A stretch of 64,000 nucleotides of DNA. Origin: Bacillus sp. 103mf. GTDB taxonomy: Bacteria; Bacillota; Bacilli; Bacillales; Bacillaceae_G. The position numbers and the translations under genes were made by a program. The DNA is taken from positions 62,001 through 126,000 of the forward strand of contig NZ_FPAF01000003.1 in NCBI RefSeq assembly GCF_900116295.1. Direction: 5' to 3'. The notes beneath the pieces were generated by a model. It did no database searches, was not told the origin of the DNA, and saw only the letters and a list, made by a program, of their open reading frames with translations. This document shows, in pieces, positions 17,843 through 37,506 of the stretch (positions are counted from its first letter, which is position 1; every line of letters starts with the position of its first letter).

Positions 17843-17976
17843 CATCACTATCAAGTTAATAAAACAAAATCTCCCTAAAATGAAAAAATACGCTATTCTT
17901 TCTGTAGAATCATAAGAAAGGATAGCGTATTTTAGGCATATAGGAGGTACATATGGAAATTAGCTTGATAGCGATG
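17843..17976. mobile_element. IS231-like mini-element, copy 1 (MIC-type)
   Basis: Left end CATCACTATCAAGTTAATAA (17843-17862), right end TTAGCTTGATAGCGATG (17960-17976, complement CATCGCTATCAAGCTAA). The 134-bp unit has no gene but contains a long hairpin with arms AAAATACGCTATTCTTTC-like and GAAAGGATAGCGTATTTT. It is flanked by GGGGTACCGCCA on the left and GGGTAGCACCA on the right, which share the GGGGTA and CCA edges. Confidence 0.6.
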
Positions 17977-17987
17977 GGGTAGCACCA

Positions 17988-18117
17988 CATGCCCATCAAC
18001 TTAAGAACAATAAACGCCCCAAAACGAAAAAATGAGCTGATTTCACAAAGTAACCACCTGTAGAGAAAGAAAATTTTCGTTTAGGGGGTATTTCAAAACC
18101 TTAGCTTGATGGCGATG
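17988..18117. mobile_element. IS231-like mini-element, copy 2 (MIC-type)
   Basis: Left end CATGCCCATCAACTTAAGAA (17988-18007) equals the published-type IS231 end as I remember it. The right end TTAGCTTGATGGCGATG is at 18101-18117. The flanks GGGGTAGCACCA (17976-17987) and TGGTGCTACCCC (18118-18129) are exact inverted complements, extending the terminal symmetry to about 32 bp. The element is 130 bp, has no gene, and abuts copy 1 with a shared GGGGTAGCACCA. Confidence 0.65.
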
Positions 18118-18458
18118 TGGTGCTACCCCCTAATGACATTGGTGGAAATGTTATAAAGAGGAATAATACTACATATTCTGATGCTTATGATGTGAATTTT
18201 GAATGTAAGAAAGATAGCCTTTTTTATTAATAAAATGAGGATAATATAAACCTAGACCTGTGACATATCTGCCTTTGTAGGTGATTGTTGGGTCTATTTT
18301 TTATTTTTCTTAAAATGAATTTAAACTTCACGTCACTGTTGTTTCCTCTACTCCTTAAGGATTTCAGCCGAGATGAAAAATTTACAGTATTTTAGTTTGA
18401 ATATTCCAAAAAATAAAATAAATATGGTAAAATAAGTATATAAAAAGGAGGTGTTTAT

Positions 18459-20550: not shown

Positions 20551-20575
20551 CTTGATGGTGGTGTGGTAATACCCC
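20547..20575 (-). repeat. IS231-like right end (R3) fused to CRISPR array
   Basis: TTAACTTGATGGTGGTG followed by TGGTAATACCCC; complement GGGGTATTACCA then CACCACCATCAAGTTAA. The interior of the element lies to the left. The last bases ATACCCC run directly into the degenerate distal CRISPR repeat. It has the right orientation to pair with L1 at 16443 as the outer ends of a 4.1-kb cassette holding the Lrp, DJ-1 and small-gene cargo. Confidence 0.55.
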
Positions 20576-20985
20576 ATATAGTTCAAATAAAACCGGAATT
20601 TATCAAGGTAATATGCAAATGTACCACGCATTTACATCCCACATAGTTCAAATAAAACCTATGACACTAAGTTTCTAAGATACATGTAAGCTCTATTTAT
20701 ATCCCACATAGTTCAGATAAAATATATAATTCTGTTGATGAGTTAATTATCTTTAATAGATTTATATCCCATATGGTTTAGATAAAACTTGGGCTGCCAG
20801 ACCAAGAAGTGGAAGGGTTGTGGAGCTTTATATCCCATGTAGTTCAGATAAAACCCCGGCTTGTTCCATTGCAACGCAAACTTCTGTGATCCTTATATCC
20901 CATAAAGTTCAGATAAAACATATTCACCATTTAGCTTTGCCTCTTGCTTATCAGTCTTTATATCCCATATAGTTCAGATAAAACC
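20569..20985 (-). CRISPR. Left CRISPR array, type I-B, 7 repeat units
   Basis: Seven repeat units of 28-29 bp with a 65-66 bp period (repeat ends at 20593, 20658, 20723, 20788, 20854, 20919 and 20985). Read from the leader, the repeat starts GTTTTATCTGAACTATAT and ends GGGATATAAA. The leader is on the right, so transcription runs leftward, away from cas. The leader-proximal repeat is the canonical form; distal ones carry scattered changes, and the last (20569-20593) is truncated and fused to an IS231-like end. Spacers are about 36-37 bp. No spacer matches anything I noticed within the window. Confidence 0.93.
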
Positions 20986-21161
20986 CTATCTATATACAGG
21001 GGATACACCTTATGATAGCAACATGTTACTACGTGTAGCAACTATCATTTTGCAGTGAATCATCGATCATGTTTTTGGATTCTCTAAAAAAACACTTACA
21101 GACCTTATCATAGTAAGGGTTTCTGCATGTTTAACAAAAACGAGGTTCACTGCAAAATTAC
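20979..21161 (-). repeat. Left 184-bp inverted repeat: leader of left array
   Basis: The reverse complement of 27538-27721, matching at every position I compared except for one extra C in the right copy (CCC here versus CCCC there). It contains the array leader and the first 7 bases of the first repeat. The same strand layout as the right copy puts an array promoter at the mirror position. Confidence 0.92.
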
Positions 21162-21176
21162 AGAGGTACCGCATGA

Positions 21177-21204
21177 TTTTTATCTTTACTATATGGGATC
21201 AAGA
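21177..21204 (+). other. Isolated degenerate CRISPR repeat upstream of cas6
   Basis: A 28-nt segment beginning TTTTTATCTTTACTATATGG that agrees with the canonical repeat at 22 of 28 positions, including an unbroken ACTATATGGGAT. It lies 16 bp right of the left leader repeat, 52 bp upstream of the cas -35 box, and points the same way as the cas operon. It belongs to neither array. Possible roles are a Cas-regulating or antitoxin-type crRNA-like gene (CreR/CreA type) or an array relic. Confidence 0.6.
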
Positions 21205-21255
21205 AAAAATCTCTCTTTGCACAGAAAGTTTTTTCCATTTATTTCTACATATTTA

Positions 21256-21285
21256 TTGTATCTTAATTTTTGCATGCATTATAAT
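21256..21285 (+). promoter_or_regulatory. Candidate cas operon promoter
   Basis: TTGTAT at 21256-21261 and TATAAT at 21280-21285 with an 18-bp spacer, 31 bp before the cas6 start codon at 21317. Confidence 0.6.
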
Positions 21286-21313
21286 AATTCTATATTAAAG
21301 ATTAAGGAGGAAA

Positions 21314-22036
21314 ATGATGAGGTTGAAAGTAAGCTTGACTTGCAAAGTAATTCCTCTCTCGTATCGTTTTATGTTTGTGAGTTTTATCAAAGAAGCTCTA
21401 AAAACATCAAACGTAGTATACGCAGAGAACCTATATATCTTTGAGAATAAATCGAATAAAAAAAGCAAGAATTTTACGTTTTCCGTTTATCTTAAAGACT
21501 ATGTTTTAGAAAATGATGAATTCCTCCTTCAGAATGGATTGGACTGGATTATTAGTTCACCTGATCCTGAATTCATTTCTTATTTAGTAGATGGTTTAAA
21601 CGAAATTAAAGAATTTCAGTACAAAGGATACAAACTACAGAAGAAGAACATATCTATACTACCGGAAGTCAAAGTGAAAAGTGATACGGTAGTATTCCGC
21701 ACCCTTTCCCCTATTTTTATTAAAGACCGAGATGGGAAACATCTTGCTCCAACAGAAGAAGGTTATGAAGAGAGTTTCAATTATATTTGTGATATGACTT
21801 TGCGTAATTATCATGGAGAAGGCTTAAAAAAACCTTTACAATTTATACCTATGAATTTAACAAAACAAGTTGTAAAAGAAAAATTTGATAATCCCCCCAA
21901 TCACCAGCACTTTGAAGCTTATAAAGGAACATTCTTGTTAAAAGGAGACCAAGAAGACTTAGAAATCCTTCGTCAAATTGGTACATCCTTCAAAAAGTCA
22001 CAAGGGTACGGCTGCGTGTCCGTGGAGTACCAATGA
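21314..22036 (+). CDS. cas6: Cas6 crRNA endonuclease
   Basis: 240 residues. The RAMP-type Cas6 would cut the array transcripts within the repeat to give mature crRNAs. The glycine-rich C-terminal loop GTSFKKSQGYGCVSV (about residues 220-234) is the family signature, and the N-terminal MRLKVSLTCKV...LPLSYR-like strand fits. ATG 21314 and 21317 are both open; the second has better spacing from TAAGGAGG. It is first in the cas6-cas8b-cas7-cas5-cas3 operon and overlaps cas8b by 4 nt (ATGA). Confidence 0.88.
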   Translation: MMRLKVSLTCKVIPLSYRFMFVSFIKEALKTSNVVYAENLYIFENKSNKKSKNFTFSVYLKDYVLENDEFLLQNGLDWIISSPDPEFISYLVDGLNEIKEFQYKGYKLQKKNISILPEVKVKSDTVVFRTLSPIFIKDRDGKHLAPTEEGYEESFNYICDMTLRNYHGEGLKKPLQFIPMNLTKQVVKEKFDNPPNHQHFEAYKGTFLLKGDQEDLEILRQIGTSFKKSQGYGCVSVEYQ

Positions 22037-23736
22037 TTCGGTTATATTTAGAAGATTGGGCTACGAACACTGGTATCTTGGGGTTTTATCGTATTTTAGA
22101 GCATGCTGAAACAGATTTATTTGAAATTGAAGAGACATATATAGACTTTGATTCAAAATTGCTTCAAGACTTTCCGGAATGGTTTTTCAATTATGCTTTT
22201 GATATGTTTTCTGTTGCAAATGAAAAAGAAGATAAGATGAATGCTTTTCTAACATACGCTACATCCAATTTTAAACGTTCTAAAGACTCTATCTTTACTG
22301 ATATTAAAGGTACGGAAAATAAGTTGAATAAGCGTTTGCCGATTGAAGGTGGAACCTTAAAAGAGCTGTTTAGCAGAAAAAAAGATGTATCCACCATTGA
22401 AGAATTAAAAACAATCACCAAAGATTACCTGAAGTTGTTAAAGCAAGAGCAAGTAAATGAGATTTTAACATTAAATATGATTCGTTCTTATTTAACTGAA
22501 CTTCATGGACAACCAAGTTTTTTACAGAGAAGACAGAGTACCTTAAATCGAATTGAACATATTGGATTTTTGACAGAAGGCTTCATTCAACCTATTTTAC
22601 TAGAACAAGAAATTCTTACTATTCTTCGTTCTTCTGATAGTCCTAACGAAGCAATAGAAGGACTAAAGAAAGCAATACAACAATCAAGTAATGTAGCTTT
22701 TAAAAAATTATCCAAAAAAATAATTACGAAACTAAAAGATGATGAGTTGCTTTATTGTCCTGTTATTGAGGGACAACTTGCTCTTACAGATTACACGGAA
22801 GCAGTCTTCTATCCAAATTCAGTGAGCATTGGTAATGCAACTAATTACACTTGGAATAACCAAGCGTCTTTTCCTATCTCCAATCTGTATCGATTAATTA
22901 TGTTTTGTTCCGTTTTTGGCCTCCACAGAGAGCAAATAAAAAAAGAGGTAACTTATTCTTTTATTCAAACTGATGAAGACTTCGATGCACTAGCAGAAGT
23001 AAATGATTTATTTGTCATCAATAAAAAACAAAACAACCCTTTTGAAGTGTTTTTATACGACACCTTAAAAGAAGCCAAGGATAAAGCAAATTGGATTTCT
23101 AAAAATATGCTAATTGTTGAATTCCAAAATAAAGGAAAGAAAACGACTCTTACACATAATTTTTTATCAGAATATGCCATTCAATACATTCAAGAGCGTG
23201 GAGGAAAAGAGCTCGATCATATTAAATATCCATCGTTTCGAAACATAATCCTACGTAAATTATTAAATGGAGAGCATTTTTTTCGTGATATCACTAACCA
23301 ATTGAGGAAAAACGTAAATAACAATTATTCCAGTTACGATACGTATACAGCCACTTTGGCTATGTTTCATTTAAATAGAATAAAGGAGTGTTACGGCATG
23401 TCTAATGAAACACGAGAAGCGCAATATGAATCTATGCAAAAGAGAATCCAGTATGCGCTAATGGATGGACGCGAAGTACGTAGAAGACTGACTGAACGTG
23501 GAATGGAGAATAAGGTTCCAGGCATTACTTACCGTCTGTTAAATGCCTTAACTACCAATAACCGTCAACAGTTCTTTGAAACATTATTCCGCACCTTTTT
23601 ATTAGTGGAAAAGAACACTTCTATGTATGTGGATGCTACAAGGGAACATAGTAATGAATTTGAAGGTATTGCGAGTGCTTTACTATCCGGATTAAATGAC
23701 AAACCCTATAAAAAAGAAGGGGAGGAAACAAACTAA
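22033..23736 (+). CDS. cas8b: Cas8b (Cst1-like) Cascade large subunit
   Basis: 567 residues. The start MIRLYLEDWATNTGILGFYR and its place between cas6 and cas7 fit the Cst1/Cas8b1 large subunit of type I-B (Tneap) systems, which recognises the PAM. A mid-protein segment (YCPVIEGQLALTDYTEAVFY) precedes the C-terminal helical domain (TNQLRKNVNNNYSSYDTYTA) that often stands in for a small subunit. It overlaps cas6 by 4 nt and cas7 by 1 nt (TAATG), so translation is coupled. Named by context and pattern. Confidence 0.8.
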   Translation: MIRLYLEDWATNTGILGFYRILEHAETDLFEIEETYIDFDSKLLQDFPEWFFNYAFDMFSVANEKEDKMNAFLTYATSNFKRSKDSIFTDIKGTENKLNKRLPIEGGTLKELFSRKKDVSTIEELKTITKDYLKLLKQEQVNEILTLNMIRSYLTELHGQPSFLQRRQSTLNRIEHIGFLTEGFIQPILLEQEILTILRSSDSPNEAIEGLKKAIQQSSNVAFKKLSKKIITKLKDDELLYCPVIEGQLALTDYTEAVFYPNSVSIGNATNYTWNNQASFPISNLYRLIMFCSVFGLHREQIKKEVTYSFIQTDEDFDALAEVNDLFVINKKQNNPFEVFLYDTLKEAKDKANWISKNMLIVEFQNKGKKTTLTHNFLSEYAIQYIQERGGKELDHIKYPSFRNIILRKLLNGEHFFRDITNQLRKNVNNNYSSYDTYTATLAMFHLNRIKECYGMSNETREAQYESMQKRIQYALMDGREVRRRLTERGMENKVPGITYRLLNALTTNNRQQFFETLFRTFLLVEKNTSMYVDATREHSNEFEGIASALLSGLNDKPYKKEGEETN

Positions 23737-24653
23737 TGGCTGGATTAACATTAACGATCGTATTTCAAGGAGATTCATTAAATTATGGAGAAGGAATTGG
23801 TAATATCTCCGAATTAAAGAAATTTAATCGTGGAAATGGTGATGTTCATACATTTGCTTCACGGCAAGCTATTCGATACGATATGGTTCGTTTAGGAGCT
23901 GAGCGTTATGGTTGGAACTTAGATACAGTTGGCCGTGACAAAGGTGAAGGGGAAGGAAAAAGCAAAAGCGTAGTTCAATATTCTCCTAGTGCTACCATTC
24001 GAGAGTCAGAAGAAATGGATTTATTTGGTTACATGAAAACTGTAAAGAAGGAGATGGGGAACAAACGCCCAGCTAGCGTTCGTTTGTCTCATGCCGTTTC
24101 TCTTGAACCGTACCGAGGAGACTTAGAATTTTTAACAAATTCAGGACATGCGTCACGTATCAATGAAAACCCAAATATCGCAACATCTGAGCGGCATACA
24201 AGCTTATATTCTTATACCATTACTATTGATTTAGATAGAATTGGTGTAGATGGAGAAATTGAATTACCACGTGAAGAAAAGGCAAGACGTATCAAAGAAT
24301 TCCTAGAAATTGCATTTTTCTTAAATCGTAATATCCGCGGGCGACAAGAAGACTTATCCCCTTTGTTTGTAATTGGAGGTCTGTATGCTATTAATCAACC
24401 ATATTTCTTAGGACGTACACAATTAGTTCCGACAAAACGTGAATACCGTTTAAATTCTATTATGCTGCAAGAAATTTTAGAACGTCGCAGTATGGGACGG
24501 ACTGTACAAGAACAAACGCATGTCGGTCTGTTATCTGGCGTTTTCGTGAATGAAGGGGAGTTGCGAAATCTTATTTCAAGCGATTCAACCCATACAATTC
24601 AAGGTATGTTAGATTACCTATTACAACAAGTGGAGAATTATTATGTCGGCTAA
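23736..24653 (+). CDS. cas7: Cas7 (Cst2/DevR-like) crRNA backbone
   Basis: 305 residues. MAGLTLTIVFQGDSLNYGEG opens the RRM-like backbone protein that coats the crRNA in Cascade. The internal HTFASRQAIRYDMVR segment and the RLSHAVSLEPYRGDLEFLTN region are typical of the Cst2/DevR branch of type I-B. Full-length and intact. It overlaps cas5 by 11 nt, and a GGAGG site for it lies inside cas8b. Confidence 0.88.
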   Translation: MAGLTLTIVFQGDSLNYGEGIGNISELKKFNRGNGDVHTFASRQAIRYDMVRLGAERYGWNLDTVGRDKGEGEGKSKSVVQYSPSATIRESEEMDLFGYMKTVKKEMGNKRPASVRLSHAVSLEPYRGDLEFLTNSGHASRINENPNIATSERHTSLYSYTITIDLDRIGVDGEIELPREEKARRIKEFLEIAFFLNRNIRGRQEDLSPLFVIGGLYAINQPYFLGRTQLVPTKREYRLNSIMLQEILERRSMGRTVQEQTHVGLLSGVFVNEGELRNLISSDSTHTIQGMLDYLLQQVENYYVG

Positions 24654-25314
24654 TACAGCGTTACGGGTAAAGTTGTACCAACAAACCGCTTGTTACAAGA
24701 AACCAATGGCACAAAAAGCAAAGGAAACCTATCCTCTTCCACCGTATAGTACAGTGAAAGGGTTCCTTCACTACGTGTTAGGTGCAAATGAATTAATTCC
24801 AATGGAAATTAGCATCCAAGGTACCCACGAAGGAAAGCTGTTTGATCTGCAAACACATTATTTTTACAAGTCGAATGAAATTACAACCATGCCCACACAT
24901 GTTCATATGTTGAAAGAAATCTCCCTTATTTTCCATGTACGTGCCGAACAAGGTGTATTGGAACAATTACAAATAGCATTAGAAAATATCAATGAGGCAC
25001 CAAGCCTTGGTCGATATGAAGATTTAGCGGTCATTGAAGACGTGAAATTGGTAACGTTGAACGAAAGACATACAAAAGAAATCATTACACTAAAAAATGA
25101 TTTCTATATACCACGTCATTGCATCGCTGATCACCTTGATTATATGAATTATAAGGGGATTTCATATCGTTTAAATACGGTATATCAAGTGAAACAAGGA
25201 ATTCGTACTTGGGAGACGGTTCAAACGCAGTTCTTCCGTAAAGGAGAAGGTTTAAATTCACCTCAGTATATGGAAGATGAAGATAGTTATATTGTATTTT
25301 TCCATGCCTTATGA
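24643..25314 (+). CDS. cas5: Cas5 (Cas5t-like)
   Basis: 223 residues. The N-terminal RAMP fold includes KLYQQTACYKKPMAQKAKET, then YPLPPYSTVKGFLHYVLGA, the conserved Cas5 segment that caps the 5' handle of the crRNA. The order cas8b-cas7-cas5-cas3 fits type I-B. It overlaps cas7 by 11 nt and ends 31 bp before cas3. Confidence 0.85.
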   Translation: MSANTALRVKLYQQTACYKKPMAQKAKETYPLPPYSTVKGFLHYVLGANELIPMEISIQGTHEGKLFDLQTHYFYKSNEITTMPTHVHMLKEISLIFHVRAEQGVLEQLQIALENINEAPSLGRYEDLAVIEDVKLVTLNERHTKEIITLKNDFYIPRHCIADHLDYMNYKGISYRLNTVYQVKQGIRTWETVQTQFFRKGEGLNSPQYMEDEDSYIVFFHAL

Positions 25315-25345
25315 GTAGGCATGGATTTTTTCAGGAGGAAAAAAC

Positions 25346-27541
25346 ATGGAAGATTTCATTTACGCAAAGTGGGATCGGCAAACAGGAAAATTTGAAACAT
25401 TACAAGAACACACAGGACGAGTATTAGAGAATTTATCTTTACTAAAACACTCGTATGGATTTCTGTTGTCAGAAGAGATTTGGCAACTTGCACAAGTAGC
25501 TGCCCAATACCATGATGCGGGAAAGATTTATGAGGGATTTCAACAATTTATTAAACTTAATATGGGGTTATCTCCTTTAACAAAGCAAGAAATTGAAAAA
25601 AAACATCCTAATGTTCCTCATGCTTTTATTTCCTTACTTTGTGTTCCATTCTTAGAATTACATTATTCCCAAAGTACAGAACGGGTTGTAAAAGAGGCCA
25701 TTGCACATCATCATGTACGAAACGTAATGTTTGATGCCCAAATACTAAATACAGTTTTATCAGATTTAAAAGGGAAAATAGACCGTTTGGAGCAAGAATT
25801 GTGTTGTTCTGTTAATAAAGATCTTGATACTACAACAATAGGTTGGAAGCCAATTAAGAAAAAGGATAAAGAATATCCTCTTCTTGTGCTTGTAAAGGGA
25901 CTTTTAAATCGTGTAGATCATACGGCTTCTGCAGGAGAACTTGTGGAATATCATGCAGACAAAGGGGTTGGGACTTATGTCGATGAATTCCTAAAAAAGA
26001 ATGATCATAAACCACGCAATCTACAACTCTTTTCTTACGAAAATCGAAACAAGAATATTGTGGCTGTTGCACAAACTGGTATGGGAAAAACAGAAGCTTC
26101 TTTATTTTGGATTGATGAAGCGAAAGGTTTTATTACACTCCCTATCCGTGTAAGTTTAAATGCCTTGTATGAGCGTATAACAAATGGAATGGGATATGTA
26201 GATGAAGAGGGGCAAGCAATTGCTGGATTGCTACACAGTGGTAGTGTGGATTTTCTACAGACATTAAACAATGATTACGAAACCAATGAGCTTATCTATG
26301 AACAGTCTCGTTTATTGAGTAAAAAGTTAACATTTAGCACAATTGATCAAATTTTGAAGTTTCCATTTTTATTTCGAGGATATGAGAAATACTTGGCCAC
26401 AATGGCGTATTCTAAGATAGTTTTAGATGAAATACAGGGTTATTCTCCGAAAATCTTAGCTGTTTTACTCAAAGCATTGGAAATGATTCACCAGATAGGC
26501 GGCAAATTTATGATTATGACCGCTACACTTCCTACTGTTTTTATGGAAACAATGGAGAAACGAGGCAAAATCAAGGTTAGTGATTTTGTAAAAGAGGAAT
26601 TCTATAATGACTTAATTCGTCACCGTATATCTATACGTAAAACAAAGATCGATGAGGACTTAGAACATATTCGTGAAGTTGGACGAAATAAACGTGTATT
26701 AATTATTGCCAATACCGTAAAAGAGGCAAAACGTATATATGGGTTGTTTCATAATGAACATGTAAGGTTGTTGCACACGCAATTTATTCAAAAGGATCGT
26801 GCCGTTTTAGAAGAAGAAATTAAGAAATTTGCACCTAATGATAAAAATCGCGAAGAACAAAGTGGGATTTGGATTGCCACACAGCTTGTAGAAGCTTCAT
26901 TAGATATTGATTTTGATTTGTTATTTACTGAAATTTCTACATTAGATAGCTTATTTCAGCGTTTAGGTCGTTGTTATCGTGGAAGGGCCTATGAGGGTAC
27001 AGAACCTAATGTCTTTGTTTATACAGAAGCACAAGGGGTAGGGAACGTTTATGATGAGGATATTGTTGATAACAGTTTAAAACTCTTAGAACCCTTTAAT
27101 GGACAAAAACTACATGAAAAAACGAAAATGGAGCTTGTCGAAACATTATATAAAACAGAAAATCTAAGCAAAAAATACTTAGATGAATTCTATCAAGCTT
27201 TAAAAGTACTAGATAAACTTCTACTAAATGATATGGGAAATACAAAAGCACAAAGGTTGTTGCGTGATATTGATAATTATCAAGTTATTCCCTGTTCTGT
27301 ATATACAGAGAATCGTGCGCTATTTACTACATTTAAACAGGAAAAAGATCCAAATCAGCGAAAATTATTACGAATACAAATCGAAAAGCTTACAACTTCG
27401 ATTTCTATACAACAAGTTCAACAAAACAGGATAGAAACGAAGGAAATTGATATTTCTGGACTTCAATACATTCGTATTTTACATTGCAAGTACGATTTTG
27501 ATAAAGAAAAGATAACAGGAACAGGAATTGTATTTCCGTAA
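25346..27541 (+). CDS. cas3: Cas3 helicase-nuclease
   Basis: 731 residues with both Cas3 parts. The N-terminal HD nuclease domain has the metal-binding QYHDAGKIYEGF (about 54-66) and a later AIAHHHVRN (about 125). The superfamily 2 helicase follows, with Walker A AQTGMGKTEASLFW (about 240), DExH-box LDEIQGYSP (about 359), MTATLPT (about 390) and the motif VI-like QRLGRCYRGR (about 537). ATG 25346 follows CAGGAGGAAAAAAC. The frame is intact, so interference should work. Its last codon and stop lie inside the right 184-bp inverted repeat. Confidence 0.92.
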   Translation: MEDFIYAKWDRQTGKFETLQEHTGRVLENLSLLKHSYGFLLSEEIWQLAQVAAQYHDAGKIYEGFQQFIKLNMGLSPLTKQEIEKKHPNVPHAFISLLCVPFLELHYSQSTERVVKEAIAHHHVRNVMFDAQILNTVLSDLKGKIDRLEQELCCSVNKDLDTTTIGWKPIKKKDKEYPLLVLVKGLLNRVDHTASAGELVEYHADKGVGTYVDEFLKKNDHKPRNLQLFSYENRNKNIVAVAQTGMGKTEASLFWIDEAKGFITLPIRVSLNALYERITNGMGYVDEEGQAIAGLLHSGSVDFLQTLNNDYETNELIYEQSRLLSKKLTFSTIDQILKFPFLFRGYEKYLATMAYSKIVLDEIQGYSPKILAVLLKALEMIHQIGGKFMIMTATLPTVFMETMEKRGKIKVSDFVKEEFYNDLIRHRISIRKTKIDEDLEHIREVGRNKRVLIIANTVKEAKRIYGLFHNEHVRLLHTQFIQKDRAVLEEEIKKFAPNDKNREEQSGIWIATQLVEASLDIDFDLLFTEISTLDSLFQRLGRCYRGRAYEGTEPNVFVYTEAQGVGNVYDEDIVDNSLKLLEPFNGQKLHEKTKMELVETLYKTENLSKKYLDEFYQALKVLDKLLLNDMGNTKAQRLLRDIDNYQVIPCSVYTENRALFTTFKQEKDPNQRKLLRIQIEKLTTSISIQQVQQNRIETKEIDISGLQYIRILHCKYDFDKEKITGTGIVFP

Positions 27542-27721
27542 TTTTGCAGTGAACCTCGTTTTTGTTAAACATGCAGAAACCCTTACTATGATAAGGTCTG
27601 TAAGTGTTTTTTTAGAGAATCCAAAAACATGATCGATGATTCACTGCAAAATGATAGTTGCTACACGTAGTAACATGTTGCTATCATAAGGTGTATCCCC
27701 TGTATATAGATAGGGTTTTAT
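27538..27721 (+). repeat. Right 184-bp inverted repeat: leader of right array
   Basis: Begins inside the cas3 stop codon and ends 7 bp into the first repeat of the right array. Inside lies a 112-bp part bounded by ATTTTGCAGTGAA (27541) and TTCACTGCAAAAT (27640-27652), plus hairpins CCTTACTATGATAAGG and GTTGCTAC / GTAGTAAC. Confidence 0.92.
27658..27687 (+). promoter_or_regulatory. Candidate promoter of right CRISPR array
   Basis: TTGCTA at 27658-27663 and TATCAT at 27682-27687, 18-bp spacer. The start of transcription would fall about 20 bp before the first repeat. The same sequence occurs in mirror image in the left leader. Confidence 0.45.
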
Positions 27722-28460
27722 TTGAACTATGTGGGATGTAAATAACATACTGATTACTCCCGAAACCTGGTTCTTTCTTAGTTTTATTTGAACTATGTGG
27801 GATATAAATGGTTGTGCTTCACTTGGATCAATTGGTACAGTTAACGTTTTATTTGAACTACATGGGATATAAATGTTTGCCCTGCGAACATGACAGATAA
27901 GCTCTCAAATGTTTTATTTGAACTATGTGGGATGTAAATCTCGATAGTACTAGTTGGCAGTGTGTTGGCTGGTACGGTTTTATCTGAACTATTTGGGATA
28001 TAAAGAAAACATATTTATAACCTTTATACTTGATTGCTTCTGCGTTTTATCTGAACTGTGTGGGATATAAAGTTCTTAATACCCCAACGATCCAATTCAA
28101 CTACATAATAGTTTTATTTGAACTATGCGGGATATAAAGATGTAATTAAAGAAATGCCCTTCTAATGCCCATTTCTGTTTTATTTGAACTATATGAGATA
28201 TAAAGAGTGTTATGGCTGAGGTGTCTTTAGGAAAATGTTTCGTTTTATCTGAACTATTTGGGATATAAAGGATCTTGTTGCTTCGCTCCCAATATTATGT
28301 TTAGCCAGTTTTATTTGAACTACATGGGATATAAATCTAGAAGTCACAAATTTTAAGAAACTGGAGTTCTTTGTTTTATTTTAGCTATGTGGGATATAAA
28401 TTCCGTTTACATCTTGACTATACATAACAACTACTTAAGTTTTATCTGAACGATATGGGA
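27715..28460 (+). CRISPR. Right CRISPR array, type I-B, 12 repeat units
   Basis: Repeats start at 27715, 27781, 27846, 27911, 27977, 28044, 28111, 28177, 28242, 28308, 28373 and 28439, giving a period of 65-67 bp (29-bp repeat, 36-38-bp spacers, 11 spacers). The repeat is GTTTTATTTGAACTATGT then GGGATATAAAT with many variants: T or C at position 8, several forms at 15-18, and A or G in GATATAAA/GATGTAAA. The last unit is cut after GATATGGGA. Transcription runs rightward, away from cas. The sequence divergence between repeats is unusually high for one array. Confidence 0.95.
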
Positions 28461-28556
28461 ATTTGTCAAAAGAAATGAACGGAACAAAAAACATGAAGAG
28501 AGTTTAGTTAACTATCCAGAGTGGGATATGCTCGATAGTTAAAACCGAATCCAACC

Positions 28557-31299: not shown

Positions 31300-31854
31300 A
31301 TGAAATTTGGATATATGCGAGTGTCTACGATTGATCAAAATTTAGATCGCCAAGAACAACAATTAAAAGAGGCCGGTTGTGAACGTATTTTTTTTGAAAA
31401 AATAACAGGATTTAAACGAAACCGCCCTGAGCTGAATCGTATGTTAGAATTTCTACGCCAAGGAGATACAGTAGTAGTAACAGATTTGACTCGTCTTTCT
31501 CGTTCTACAAAAGATTTAATTGAAATTGCCGAACTCATTTCTCAAAAAGGAGCAAACTTAAAAAGTCTAAAAGAAGCTTGGCTTGATACAACAACAGCAC
31601 ATGGAAAAATACTCTTTACTGTTTTTGCAGGGATTGCTCAATTTGAAAGAGATTTAACCTCTGAACGAACAAAAGAAGGAATCATAGCAGCCAAGAAACG
31701 TGGGAAACATCCTGGAAGACCCAAAACTGATGAGGAAAAGGTAAATTATGCTTTATATCTTATAGATCAAGGGATGAATCGTACGGATGCTGCAGAAAAA
31801 GCTGGTATCTCTCGCATGACGCTGTATCGTAAAATACAACAAAAAGATAATTAG
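31300..31854 (+). CDS. tnpR: Serine resolvase/recombinase
   Basis: 184 residues, the usual length for a Tn3-type resolvase. MKFGYMRVSTIDQNLDRQEQ carries the catalytic Ser (residue 9), followed by VVTDLTRLSRSTKDLIEIAE with the active-site Arg residues, FAGIAQFERDLTSERTKEGI and a C-terminal helix-turn-helix (RTDAAEKAGISRMTLYRKIQ). AAAGGAAGAATTAC precedes ATG 31300. Its res site lies upstream. A second copy of that site in the same direction lies at 14607, so this enzyme could in principle excise the DNA in between. Confidence 0.88.
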   Translation: MKFGYMRVSTIDQNLDRQEQQLKEAGCERIFFEKITGFKRNRPELNRMLEFLRQGDTVVVTDLTRLSRSTKDLIEIAELISQKGANLKSLKEAWLDTTTAHGKILFTVFAGIAQFERDLTSERTKEGIIAAKKRGKHPGRPKTDEEKVNYALYLIDQGMNRTDAAEKAGISRMTLYRKIQQKDN

Positions 31855-33846: not shown

Positions 33847-36800
33847 ATGACAAACACAGTGCAAACAAACAGTTTACAAAAGCTCGTTTGTTTTTATGAA
33901 GAATGGCAGAAAAAAGGCGATATAGAACATAGTGAGAAGTTGCTTGAAGTTGTACGGAAATATAAAGAAGAGAAGCTTATGATTGCATTTTGCGGTCATT
34001 TCTCTGCTGGAAAATCAACAATGATGAACTATTTATATAAAGATCAATTGTTGCCAACAAGTCCGATTCCAACGAGCGCGAATGTTGTAAAGATAGAAAA
34101 AGGACCGAATCGAGTTGTTGTTATTTTAAAATCAGGGCAAAAATACGAGTATGACGGTATGTATACAGCAGAAGAGTTAAAAGAGCTTTGCAAAAATGGT
34201 GATGAAGTAATCGGTATTCATATTTATCGCACGGATGCACCGCTTCCAGAAGATGTTGTTCTTGTTGATACGCCTGGCATCGATTCAACTGATGATGCGC
34301 ATCAACTTGCAACAGAATCTACGTTGCATCTTGCTGATGTTATTTTTTATATGATGGATTATAATCATGTGCAATCGGAAGTGAATTTACAGTTTGTTAA
34401 AGAGTTAAAACAGCGTAACAAAACCGTTTACCTTGTTGTGAATCAAATTGATAAACATAAAGAAAATGAATTGTCTTTCGAGACATATCAAAAAAGCGTA
34501 GCGCAATCATTTTTTAATTGGAATATAGAAGTTGATGGTATATTTTATACGTCTTTACGTATGCCGAATCATTCACATAACGAATTAGGGCAGTTAGAGC
34601 AACGACTTTCCTCGATAGTAAAGGAAAAAAATGTGTATGTGAAAAGAGGGATGGAGAGAGAAGTATCTTATTTGTTACAAGAACATTTCTCATTTTTACT
34701 TTCACAATATGAAAAACAATTGGAACCGTTTCAACAAGAGTTAGCATCGATGTTATCACTTCAAGATGTAACGGTGATTTTAGAACAGCTTGCAGAAAAA
34801 GAAAAACATATTACAAATACAGAAGCGGAAATGAAAGAGGAGTTTTTTAGTGGTCTGCAAAATATTTTAGACAATGCATATTTAATGCCGTTTGAAATAC
34901 GTGATTTAGCAAATCAATATTTAGAAACGAAGCTCACTAAATTTAAAGTTGGTTTACTGTTTTCGAAAGGAAAAACAGAGCAAGAAAAACAGCGTCGTTT
35001 AGAAGTGTTTTATGAGTCACTAAAGAAAATAGTAGAGACGCAGCTTGATTTTCATATGAAAGAGTACGTTGTATCTTTTTTAAAGCAAGAAGAGCTATTC
35101 ACAGAAGAACTTGGAAAAGTAATATATGACATAAATGCGGACTTTGGTCGGGCATTACTGGAAGCAACTATTAAACAAGGAGCTGGATTTACTGGAGATT
35201 ATTTGCTTCATTATACAGCAGATGTCGCAAATGAACTGAAGAAATGTTATCGCCTCGCAGCACAGAATATACTTGAAAAAAGTTTGCCACTCTTGCAAAG
35301 TAAAGTGCAAGTAGACATGCAACGTATACGAGAAGAAATAGCACAATATGAAGCTGAAAAAGAGGCTAAGGAAATAAAGTTACAGTGCATGCAAGAGTAT
35401 GATCACTATGAAAAATATTTACAAGATATATGGCACGATCGTTTTTCTGTTCCGCAAAGTATTGATATAGAGGAAGTTTTACAGCAAACAAAGAAAGTAA
35501 CAAACGAAAAATTTCAAATACAAACGCAAATGGAAAAAGAGGATGAACTTACTTATAACGAGTCAGAAGCAGTTTCGAAAACAAAACTTAATATCACTCG
35601 TATTATGGAGCATGTTAAGGATGCAGAACGTGTTTTGCAGAAACTTCCAGCTCTTAAACATGTACAACAAGAGATTATGGAGAAAAGGGAACGTGTGGAA
35701 GCGAAACAGTTTACAGTGGCGCTATTTGGCGCGTTTAGTGCTGGGAAATCTTCTTTTGCTAACGCGTTATTAGGAGAAAAGGTATTACCGGTATCACCTA
35801 ATCCTACAACAGCAACGATTAATCAAATTTTACCAGTAACAGACGAAAAACCTCATGGTACGGTAATTGTACAGTTTAAATCAGAAACGGCACTCTTTGA
35901 AGATTTAAAGGCTGTTTATAAATTATTTTATCGTGATATTACCTCCCTAGAAGAAGCGCTACTGCAAATTGATGATGTACTGCAATATCCAGAACCAAGC
36001 GGTAGACAAAAAACAACGTTTAGTTTTTTACGCGCTGTGCAGCATGGATATACGGAAGTAAAGCATCGGTTAGGAGAACAATCTCGTGTAACGTTATCTG
36101 AATTCGCTGATTATGTTGCCAATGAAGAAAAGTCCTGTTTTGTAGAGTATATGGAGCTTTATTATGATTGTGAATTGACAAGACAGGGGATTGCGCTTGT
36201 AGACACGCCAGGAGCAGATTCTATTAACGCGCGTCATACAGACGTAGCGTTCCAATATATCAAGAATGCAGATGCAATTTTATTTGTAACGTATTATAAC
36301 CACGTATTTTCACGAGCTGACCGAGAATTTTTAATTCAACTTGGACGTGTAAAAGATACGTTTGCACTTGATAAAATGTTCTTCTTAATTAATGCGGCGG
36401 ATTTAGCGCAATCAGAAGAAGAATTACAAACAGTAAAGGGTTATATTAGCGATCAACTGCTGCAGTATGGAATTCGTAATCCACGGTTGTTCGCAATATC
36501 TAGTTTATTTGCATTGGAAGAAAAGCAAGGAAAAGATATTTCGAAAGAAGCGTATGGCATTTTACAACAATCTGGTCTTGCACAATTTGAACAAGCTTTC
36601 ACTTCGTTTATTATGAGAGATTTAATGCTTGTATCAGTTCATTCTTTATACGGAGCACTTCAAAACAGTTATAAGCTTCTTGCAAATATGATTGAAAGTG
36701 CAATGCAAGGGAATGAAGAAAAAGAACAAAAACGACAAAAATATGAAGCAGAACGTGAAGAACTGCTTCATAGGATCTCTTCGCACAGCGTTATAACAGA

Positions 36801-37506
36801 AGAAAAGGCATTGGAAAATGAAGTGAAAGAACTTTTATATTATGTAAAGCAACGTTTATTTTTACGATACAATGATGTGTTTACAGAATTTATTAATCCA
36901 GCTTCTTTGCGAACACAAGGGAATGTGAAAGAAAAATTACAAGAGTGCATGATGGAGTTAATAGCTTTCTTACAACATGACTTATTGCAAGAAATGCGTG
37001 CAACTTCACTGCGTCTTGAAAAATGGATAAATGAAACGATGAGACATGTGCAAGAAGGCGTAGCAGAGCAATGTGTTACAAGGAATGAACAGCTCGTAAT
37101 CCATACAGATGTAACATATGATTATCGCGTTCTTATGAATGAAAATCCATTTCCAACTATAGAAGCAACACAATTTAAAAAAGCATTATCTCATTTTAAA
37201 AGCGAGAAAAATTTCTTTGAGAAAAATGATAAAGCATTGATGCAAGAAGAAATGAAGCAAACGTTAGAACCGTTTGTAGCGGATTACGTAACAGAAGAAC
37301 AACGCTTATTTGTTAACCATTATAAACAAGAATGGCTTCATAGATGGGAACTTGTGAAAACAACTATGATGCAAGATATAGCACAATACTATGAAAGTTT
37401 ATTATTTGCTTTATTGGAAACGATTGATGTTTCTGTATACGAACAGCGAAAAGAAGAATTAGGAAAGCAGTTACTAAAAATAGAACATGAAGTAGAAGGA
37501 TTATAA
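33847..37506 (+). CDS. dynA: Double dynamin-like GTPase DynA
   Basis: 1,219 residues with two fused dynamin modules, close to the size of B. subtilis DynA (YpbR). Module one: P-loop FCGHFSAGKSTMMN (about 45-58), DTPGIDSTDDA (about 140) and VVNQIDKH (about 198). Module two: LFGAFSAGKSSFANA (about 625), DTPGADSINARH (about 785) and the NAAD specificity motif near 845. Long helical stalk regions separate them. It tethers and fuses membranes and takes part in phage and membrane-stress protection in B. subtilis. GTACGAGGGG precedes ATG 33847. Confidence 0.92.
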   Translation: MTNTVQTNSLQKLVCFYEEWQKKGDIEHSEKLLEVVRKYKEEKLMIAFCGHFSAGKSTMMNYLYKDQLLPTSPIPTSANVVKIEKGPNRVVVILKSGQKYEYDGMYTAEELKELCKNGDEVIGIHIYRTDAPLPEDVVLVDTPGIDSTDDAHQLATESTLHLADVIFYMMDYNHVQSEVNLQFVKELKQRNKTVYLVVNQIDKHKENELSFETYQKSVAQSFFNWNIEVDGIFYTSLRMPNHSHNELGQLEQRLSSIVKEKNVYVKRGMEREVSYLLQEHFSFLLSQYEKQLEPFQQELASMLSLQDVTVILEQLAEKEKHITNTEAEMKEEFFSGLQNILDNAYLMPFEIRDLANQYLETKLTKFKVGLLFSKGKTEQEKQRRLEVFYESLKKIVETQLDFHMKEYVVSFLKQEELFTEELGKVIYDINADFGRALLEATIKQGAGFTGDYLLHYTADVANELKKCYRLAAQNILEKSLPLLQSKVQVDMQRIREEIAQYEAEKEAKEIKLQCMQEYDHYEKYLQDIWHDRFSVPQSIDIEEVLQQTKKVTNEKFQIQTQMEKEDELTYNESEAVSKTKLNITRIMEHVKDAERVLQKLPALKHVQQEIMEKRERVEAKQFTVALFGAFSAGKSSFANALLGEKVLPVSPNPTTATINQILPVTDEKPHGTVIVQFKSETALFEDLKAVYKLFYRDITSLEEALLQIDDVLQYPEPSGRQKTTFSFLRAVQHGYTEVKHRLGEQSRVTLSEFADYVANEEKSCFVEYMELYYDCELTRQGIALVDTPGADSINARHTDVAFQYIKNADAILFVTYYNHVFSRADREFLIQLGRVKDTFALDKMFFLINAADLAQSEEELQTVKGYISDQLLQYGIRNPRLFAISSLFALEEKQGKDISKEAYGILQQSGLAQFEQAFTSFIMRDLMLVSVHSLYGALQNSYKLLANMIESAMQGNEEKEQKRQKYEAEREELLHRISSHSVITEEKALENEVKELLYYVKQRLFLRYNDVFTEFINPASLRTQGNVKEKLQECMMELIAFLQHDLLQEMRATSLRLEKWINETMRHVQEGVAEQCVTRNEQLVIHTDVTYDYRVLMNENPFPTIEATQFKKALSHFKSEKNFFEKNDKALMQEEMKQTLEPFVADYVTEEQRLFVNHYKQEWLHRWELVKTTMMQDIAQYYESLLFALLETIDVSVYEQRKEELGKQLLKIEHEVEGL

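Follow-up and report, generated by a model that had tools for sequence, protein, structure and literature searches.

How two CRISPR arrays on either side of one cas operon came to carry leaders that are exact mirror images of each other is the question raised by this locus. Within the window (the whole 64-kb stretch of DNA analysed), positions 20978-21161 and 27538-27721 aligned directly as exact reverse complements over 184 bp, ungapped and with 100% identity; extension to 185 bp failed, and beyond the block merely 20 of 60 bases of the other flanks agreed. The initial annotation had recognised the two copies as reverse complements, but the inserted C that it placed between them is absent, and the left copy starts at 20978, not at 20979. 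As it had also proposed, each copy holds an array leader and the start of the first repeat: 177 bp of leader (20985-21161 on the minus strand and 27538-27714 on the plus strand), identical at 177/177 positions, followed by the first 7 nt of repeat 1. An exact inverted repeat of 177 bp is far beyond chance. The identity ends inside the repeat; the whole repeat 1 differs between the two sides at 3/28 or 4/29 bases, and the left copy (L1) is closer to the remaining left repeats than to its right counterpart (R1). The segment between the arms measures 6376 bp. The right block begins at 27538, one base ahead of the cas3 stop TAA (27539-27541), so that the stop lies wholly within the block; the reported overlap with cas3 is real, but the block does not begin inside the stop codon.

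Between the leaders lie five genes in a single operon, cas6-cas8b-cas7-cas5-cas3, by which the locus is classified as a type I-B CRISPR-Cas system (Cst1/Cst2, 'tneap'). All five products (5/5) scored above the NCBIfam cut-offs and were matched by PADLOC models: Cas6 (Cas6b; 21314..22036; TIGR01877, E 1.8e-30; PADLOC Cas6b, E 1.9e-69), Cas8b of the Cst1 type (22033..23736; TIGR01908, E 2.8e-9; PADLOC Cas8b, E 2.7e-65), Cas7 (Cst2/DevR; 23736..24653; TIGR02585, E 1.3e-62), Cas5 (Cas5b, Cas5t type; 24643..25314; TIGR01895, E 7.7e-37), and Cas3 with HD nuclease and helicase domains (25346..27541; TIGR01587 and TIGR01596; PADLOC Cas3b, E 1.6e-211), all encoded on the plus strand. A tblastn search with the Cas4, Cas1 and Cas2 proteins of locus L057 (E up to 1e-3) gave no match to cas4, cas1 or cas2 within the 64-kb window; cas1 and cas2 may lie elsewhere in the genome. 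Judged by its gene content, the locus is probably capable of interference, and the writing of new memory is not possible with the genes seen in the window. The cas4-cas1-cas2 set is not a strict feature of type I-B, as the fetched stretches of three surveyed loci (L002, L007, and L064) also lack it. The operon matched neither plasmids nor phages, and Cas8b had no match in IMG/VR.

The arrays run outward from the operon, with 7 units on the left and 12 on the right, and both the coordinates and the alignment bear out the description of two divergent arrays that enclose a cas operon and have identical leaders. The left array (20565..20984, minus strand, reading leftward) has seven repeats and six spacers, and the right array (27715..28466, plus strand) has 12 repeats and 11 spacers; the terminal repeat of each is degenerate at its 3' end. 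The repeats of 29-30 nt, the spacers of 36-38 nt and the position next to the operon are those of type I-B. None of the 17 spacers, all of which were compared, is common to the two arrays. The mean pairwise divergence was 13.1% among the first six left repeats, 11.0% among the first eleven right repeats, and 12.5% between the arrays. When 110 arrays were compared, the two window arrays ranked first in leader-proximal repeat divergence (9.9% and 13.1%); among the other 108 it was 0 in 95 and reached a maximum of 9.3%. Both arrays are, as read from their repeats, old and decaying. Some repeat variants recur across positions (R1=R4=L6, R3=R10, and R5=R9), so the repeats apparently recombine too and their divergence is no clean clock. 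Spacer R2 (27810..27845, plus strand) matched, at 33/36 bases, a C40 peptidase gene that a Priestia megaterium plasmid carries in a conjugal-transfer region, and the CCT at the 5' flank of this protospacer fits YCN/CCW, the PAM of the C. difficile I-B system. Among the plasmid matches to the arrays, only H20 covered an entire spacer; H21 and H22, which fell largely or entirely within repeats, were disregarded. Spacer matches to phages had E values of 0.2 or worse and were taken as chance, and exact pieces of R1, L1, R3, and R2 had no match in IMG/VR.

At the divergence of the repeats, 22 differences between the leaders would be expected, and 0/177 were observed. The initial annotation had offered a recent inverted duplication or gene conversion; recency and conversion gain from this discrepancy, and a new duplication of leader and array together loses. 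Since the repeats differ by 12.5% and the leaders not at all, conversion or copying of the leader only is favoured, and since repeat divergence is highest, among the 110, in the two window arrays, the leaders were probably equalised after the arrays had decayed. This timing is divergence arithmetic rather than a strain comparison, as this exact locus was seen in a single genome. We consider it probable that an interference-capable locus, in which acquisition genes were not seen, had its inverted leaders made identical by recent recombination, likeliest by a right-to-left conversion. The five interference genes lie between two old arrays with one leader each, the right leader directly 3' of the operon, which is the family's usual place, and the left leader and its array opposed, 5' of cas6. 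Through recombination, the two inverted leaders would recently have become identical, most likely by gene conversion that copied the right one onto the left, once spacer acquisition had stopped and the repeat sequences had drifted apart. Each leader would drive outward transcription of its array, and Cas6 would process the transcripts into crRNAs for a common Cas8b-Cas7-Cas5-Cas3 machinery. By becoming or receiving the inverted leader, the stretch ahead of cas6 would have been stripped of the greater part of a forward crRNA-like element, which several relatives keep there and which probably represses the cas operon.

The best of the other explanations, that a single recent inverted duplication of the leader and first repeat(s) gave rise to the left array, which then grew its own spacers, appears unlikely to us. 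It would account for the GTAA that the perfect copy carries at its outer edge, where TAA is the cas3 stop, and for the lack of common spacers. Growth, however, needs time and copies one repeat, whereas decay has gone equally far in the left and the right repeats while the leader is unchanged. The left repeats are also mostly of another type, with C at position 8 in 5/6 of them and in 3/11 of the right ones (Fisher p = 0.05), and the search of the window for acquisition genes found none.

The divergence of the two leaders could also have been slowed by strong selection acting on both, although we find it improbable that selection alone keeps them identical, both arrays needing one trans-acting factor. 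The identical block coincides with the functional leader, including a pair of inverted motifs separated by about 100 bp (distal and proximal motifs at 21148-21157 and 21048-21057 in the left leader, and at 27542-27551 and 27642-27651 in the right one). With at most 8/26 mismatches, this pair occurred in 74/90 family leaders and in 3/270 shuffles, and both window leaders had 1/26 mismatch to its consensus, which was derived from the same leaders in which the motif was counted. Across genera, the arms of the surveyed family leaders are conserved and co-vary, with near-fixed spacing, so that some factor probably reads them. We did not favour an RNA stem between the two arms, since some arm differences, judged by eye, fit neither Watson-Crick nor G-U pairing, which makes it likelier that both arms are read by a protein or a complex. 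Such a factor would suit selection, but the two conserved arms cover a minority of the 177 bp, and the leaders within a locus are just 45-84% alike in 16 measurable direct pairs. For the latter reason equal leaders as a requirement of the family were rejected. Carriage of the leader by a mobile element or MITE was likewise rejected: its motif pair resembles terminal inverted repeats, but the distance from this pair to repeat 1 is nearly fixed across many genera. Nor did the leader turn up in plasmids or, sought as one exact 40-base pattern, in IMG/VR. The same promoter-like site (TTGCTA-18-TATCAT; 21041-21012 on the left and 27658-27687 on the right) is present in both leaders, each directed into its own array, so equal expression of the left and right arrays from these predicted promoters is plausible.

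An invertible switch, in which recombination between the leaders flips the cas operon and changes the array used, seems to us quite improbable. With perfect 177-bp inverted arms 6376 bp apart a crossover is structurally possible and would leave the cas3 end unchanged, but a flip alters no junction inside a gene or an array, each array has its own leader, and nothing obvious is switched. A flip of the operon is thus possible as a silent event; since cas3 and both arrays stay as they are, it would by itself switch nothing. That one leader was copied in silico to the second site during assembly is very improbable: many reads exceed the block in length, and the two sides differ both in their outer flanks and in their inner repeats.

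To place the locus among its relatives, we surveyed 114 I-B loci, window included (L001 and L002 come from the same genome, as do L105 and L106, and four loci are from C. difficile). Arrays flanked both sides in 22/114 loci and were inverted in 5/22 (the window, L057, L060, L108, and L116); more loci could be bracketed, because only 82/114 have at least 5 kb on both sides of cas7, and the array detection missed some arrays (L016, L031, and L036, right side only) and the left flank of L058 was masked. The leaders of inverted pairs were about 64-99% identical, against 45-84% for the direct pairs, in a small sample from which L117 was dropped as its leader is cut; the orientation effect had a Mann-Whitney p of 0.0056 with the window and 0.019 without it, uncorrected for kinship. 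The pattern was first noticed at 5 inverted and 11 direct pairs, and was weakened by five further direct pairs, three of them at 80-84%. We can only tentatively suggest that orientation sets the fate of paired leaders, direct copies diverging and inverted copies staying alike by gene conversion, and that the window is an extreme case in which, after the loss of adaptation genes, the converting leader overwrote the operon's guide-RNA repressor. Same-facing leaders around an operon could not stay alike, because recombination between them would delete the operon, whereas opposed leaders may be kept alike by gene conversion, since free recombination at worst flips the operon silently. Inversion does not force homogeneity, as the inverted leaders of L057 are only 64% alike. 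If concerted evolution of leaders is orientation-dependent, leader identity between arrays would record recombination, beyond shared function, and inverted-leader loci would be natural test beds for how often whole cas operons flip. The tie between the absence of cas1 and repeat decay appears loose in these loci: among the relatives, repeat divergence is highest in the left array of L110, a cas1-bearing locus, and L064, in which cas1 is absent, nonetheless has uniform repeats.

Between the left leader and cas6, 15 bp from the leader, we observed a degenerate forward CRISPR repeat without the 3' handle (21177..21205, plus strand, 7/29 mismatches to repeat L1). For the five repeats compared, no site of the window beyond the arrays matched better, and the local score of this one was 18, against a maximum of 16 among 2000 shuffles. 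We read this pseudo-repeat as the second repeat of a former creR/creA-like element or as the last repeat of an array that once ran forward. The initial annotation had remarked neither on it nor on the decay of the two arrays or the lack of cas1, cas2 and cas4. Some relatives have a psiR1-psiS-psiR2 arrangement in the region corresponding to the left leader and pseudo-repeat site, intact for example in L009 (Domibacillus indicus), and the survey shows that elements resembling guides adjoin some I-B operons in Bacilli and Clostridia. In the window, this is the single clear pseudo-repeat; a second degenerate repeat flanking a guide is absent, no repeat standing ahead of a guide, and the 17 spacers gave no CC-flanked seed match of at least 9/10 in 20985-21900. 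Among the relatives, a PAM-flanked seed target was present beside the operon for 8/18 candidate pairs, the match of L045 having been dropped because it was the guide itself; L067 has the best repeat pair overall, yet no seed target. The CreR/CreA crRNA-like regulators of type I systems also have degenerate repeats adjoining the cas operon, and their PAM-flanked partial target is matched in some surveyed relatives (PMC12737573, PMC8501985), whereas the window has one remaining pseudo-repeat and no complete guide. In some known CreA, a single repeat precedes the guide (PMC8501985).

The initial annotation knew of no precedent for such a mirrored double leader in type I-B. Precedents exist: the four other inverted I-B loci of the survey and the identical inverted leaders published for type I-A in Sulfolobus islandicus (PMC9456107). 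The window layout is a variant of a known one and not a new kind of system. In S. islandicus REY15A, CRISPR loci 1 and 2 have identical 206-bp leaders in inverse orientation beside cas genes, with leader-distal and leader-proximal motifs, as in the window; unlike the window, this is a type I-A system of an archaeon, in which Csa3a binds the distal motif and acquisition occurs at both loci upon Csa3a induction (PMC9456107). The leader pairs of L116, L108, L060, and L057 (Hazenella coriacea), whose inverted arrays bracket the cas operon, are 94%, 84%, 98%, and 64% alike; in contrast to the window, all four loci have cas1 and nearly uniform leader-proximal repeats, and the arrays of L060 are convergent. 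L007 (Domibacillus robiginosus), L064, and L002 have an operon of a similar size class between two arrays, and the repeats of L007 and L002 are diverged like those of the window, but in these three loci both arrays are forward and the leaders are 56-71% alike.

In C. difficile, two conserved inverted repeat motifs lie upstream of every array (PMC8406132), and our survey extends these motifs to Bacilli. Its type I-B system shares with the window the motif pair, the YCN/CCW PAM and the 29-nt repeat, but has 8.5 arrays per genome on average (PMC8406132, PMC7064742), and the surveyed C. difficile loci contain cas4-cas1-cas2. Type I-B systems that have lost adaptation genes, comparable to the window, in which none were found, were reported in the B. 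cereus group, where the defective variant I-B d1, unlike the window, retains only cas3, cas5, and cas7; the available part of that account has no mention of mirrored leaders (PMC7242445). Judged by record title, the 80 loci kept of the 109 found as Cas7 relatives include none from the B. cereus group. Haloquadratum walsbyi C23, an archaeon, resembles the window in having cas genes between two arrays, crispr-2 and crispr-3, and in strain HBSQ001 the cas genes were lost at this site (PMC3119063). In the window itself, a serine recombinase gene lies at 31300-31854, about 3.6 kb to the right of the right arm.

The leader arrangement at this locus is real and well explained, and it varies a layout that was already known; the chief points are the perfect leaders set against decayed arrays, a possible orientation rule and a putatively truncated guide element. 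The blocks at 20978-21161 and 27538-27721 were found to be exact reverse complements over 184 bp, with 100% identity in an ungapped alignment. The initial annotation was right about mirror-image blocks flanking the cas operon and about arrays running outward (these hold 6 spacers on the left and 11 on the right), whereas the single inserted C that it placed between the blocks disappeared in the alignment, and the block edge that it put inside the cas3 stop codon lies one base before it. Each block is composed of 177 bp of leader (left, 20985-21161, minus strand; right, 27538-27714, plus strand) and continues for 7 nt into repeat 1, so that its repeat-side edge falls inside this repeat, at which the two arrays differ in 4 of 29 bases. 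Past the cas3-side edge, 20 of 60 flanking bases agree. Recombination between the arms would invert 21162-27537. Since the stop codon sits within the repeated block, the end of cas3 would remain unchanged; each array would retain its own leader and cas6 its 152-bp upstream region, and the flip would be silent except for the direction of the operon.

Between the blocks the gene order is cas6-cas8b-cas7-cas5-cas3, of the type I-B Cst1/Cst2 kind, with all genes exceeding the NCBIfam cut-offs. For cas4-cas1-cas2, usual for the I-B family, no tblastn match was obtained in the 64-kb window with Cas4, Cas1 and Cas2 of L057, the Hazenella coriacea locus, as queries. The two arrays have no spacer in common, and their repeats are strongly diverged, with a mean pairwise difference of 11.0% in the right array (11 repeats, of which the first six give 9.9%), 13.1% in the left array (6 repeats) and 12.5% between the two. 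Among 108 arrays of relatives, the six leader-proximal repeats were identical in 95, and divergence reached at most 9.3% (L110 left, five repeats, at a locus with cas1). Because their divergence exceeds that of all these arrays, the window arrays look like old ones without recent acquisition. The tie between repeat decay and missing cas1 is loose: the next four most diverged arrays (L105, L002 right, L007 right and L007 left) belong to loci without cas1, yet L064, whose locus likewise lacks cas1, has uniform repeats. In the L007 genome the I-B Cas1 query had no match, in the L064 genome its sole match was distant (24% identity), and in the L002 and L105 genomes the match sits in another I-B locus.

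Leaders that had diverged as much as the repeats have between the arrays would differ at 22 of 177 positions, and 0 differences were observed, although this clock is rough and presumes equal rates for leader and repeats. Function does not keep leaders of the I-B family identical, since in the 16 measurable cases where both arrays point forward they are 45-84% alike. The first left repeat (L1) has a C in position 8 and an A in position 17, as is common in the left array, and the first right repeat (R1) differs; therefore, the copied tract ends at the leader/repeat border, which argues for the leader alone having been copied onto a pre-existing array. Of the recent inverted duplication or gene conversion proposed initially, the late copying is supported, but the array was probably not copied along, given the left-type L1 and repeats 12.5% apart. 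Identical repeat variants turn up far from each other and in both arrays (R1=R4=L6, R3=R10, R5=R9), and hence the repeats may recombine too.

Upstream of cas6, at 21177-21205, we found a degenerate forward repeat, TTTTTATCTTTACTATATGGGATCAAGAA, which matches the five repeats compared better than any other non-array site in the window does (7 of 29 mismatches; the next has 9), with a local score of 18 versus a maximum of 16 in 2000 shuffles. In some relatives, the first 1 kb or so upstream of cas6 holds a short guide flanked by two degenerate forward repeats. Repeat pairs with up to 14 of 48 mismatches occurred in forward orientation in 8 of 84 loci, and in none of the 84 in reverse orientation or in shuffled sequence. 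With the seed defined as guide positions 1-5 and 7-11 and the target as a site near the operon behind CC, 8 of 18 pairs (up to 17 mismatches) had a full seed match, flanked by CCA or CCT in all eight (L001, L006, L009, L023, L050, L102, L103 and L122); shuffled guides gave a full CC-flanked match in 6 of 11,600 trials. The remaining 10 pairs, including the best one, L067, had no full CC-flanked seed match near the operon, L116 matching at 9 of 10 positions. A guide with a PAM-flanked seed target is also what PMC8501985 and PMC12737573 describe for CreA and CreR, crRNA-like regulators of type I systems, and the mini-CRISPRs of these eight loci are probably regulators of the CreR or CreA kind in bacterial I-B systems.

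In the clearest relatives the first repeat lies 53-64 bp upstream; at the corresponding place the window has the left leader, with its end 15 bp away from the pseudo-repeat. Our inference is that a guide, perhaps a repressor of cas, was overwritten by the inverted leader. Alternatively, a former forward array could have left the pseudo-repeat as its terminal repeat. Both readings imply that the left leader is the derived copy.

We surveyed 114 loci (the window, 80 relatives and 33 fetched from further genomes), 22 of which had the operon bracketed by arrays: in 17 both arrays point forward, four are divergent (the window, L057, L108 and L116) and one is convergent (L060, with leaders on the outside, 98% alike, as the mirror layout inside out). 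Leader identity in the inverted pairs was 64, 84, 94, 98 and 99%, the last being the window over 180 bp, extending past the block. Inverted pairs exceeded direct pairs (Mann-Whitney p = 0.0056; 0.019 without the window), with identity of at least 90% in 3 of 5 versus 0 of 16, a pattern spotted in the course of the analysis and weaker once further direct pairs were added. A simple reason would be that too-similar direct copies recombine and delete the operon, whereas inverted copies can do no more than flip the operon or convert one another. The layout itself is already known, as earlier reports describe identical 206-bp leaders in inverse orientation in the type I-A system of S. islandicus REY15A (PMC9456107) and a cas set flanked by two arrays in Haloquadratum walsbyi C23 (PMC3119063); given REY15A and the four other inverted I-B loci of the survey, the double-leader layout does not stand without precedent.

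The 177 bp correspond to a functional I-B leader. Leaders of the family carry a distal motif, TTTGCAGTRAACC, and a proximal motif, GGTTYACTGCAAA, in inverted form. Of 113 extracted leaders, 90 were used, after exclusion of 22 with the other repeat type and one containing unknown bases. The pair was present at up to 8 of 26 mismatches in 74 of 90 leaders, the same set from which the consensus was derived, versus 3 of 270 shuffled leaders, and was absent from 16 of 90 at this threshold. The spacing of the 13-mers was 94-97 bp in 68 of the 71 best leaders; leaders showing the pair at near-fixed spacing include the window (27542-27551, 27642-27651), L004, L033 and L057. The arms co-vary, with 753 of 1122 cells complementary over 66 different arm pairs against 696.5 (sd 11.1) for permuted proximal arms, 0 of 2000 permutations reaching 753, species kinship being uncorrected. 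We take the pair to be the same as the two conserved inverted repeat motifs reported for C. difficile leaders, and thus already known in one species; in the literature found, it is mentioned for C. difficile only (PMC8406132). Its extension to Bacilli and other Clostridia, the near-fixed spacing and the co-variation are added here.

The distal motif of the right leader begins immediately 3ʹ of the cas3 stop codon. Both leaders have an extended -10 promoter-like site directed into the array, such sites being about as frequent in shuffles. A terminator-like hairpin (6 pairs, then TTTTAT) is present at the leader/repeat border of both (27698-27715 and 21001-20984), and might attenuate array transcripts.

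The second right spacer (R2) matches, at 33 of 36 bases, a C40 peptidase gene of a conjugative Priestia megaterium plasmid (NZ_CP071479.1), adjoining a VirB4-like gene and with a VirD4-like gene near. The 5ʹ flank of the protospacer, CCT, fits the YCN/CCW PAM of C. difficile I-B and agrees with the CCW flanks of the relatives' guide targets. No other spacer had a full-length match in phage and plasmid searches, and exact pieces of spacers R1, R2, R3 and L1 had none in IMG/VR.

Elsewhere in the window, a serine recombinase gene (resolvase/invertase family) lies at 31300-31854, some 2.8 kb beyond the right end of the right array, and an imperfect 30-bp inverted repeat (17976-18005 and 18100-18129, arms 94 bp apart) lies outside the CRISPR locus. 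The protein encoded at 33847-37506 (1219 aa) has two GTPase regions of the dynamin type. For the neighbouring dynamin-like gene, the top-scoring DNA matches among the genomes searched showed 68-72% identity over about 0.8-1.4 kb.
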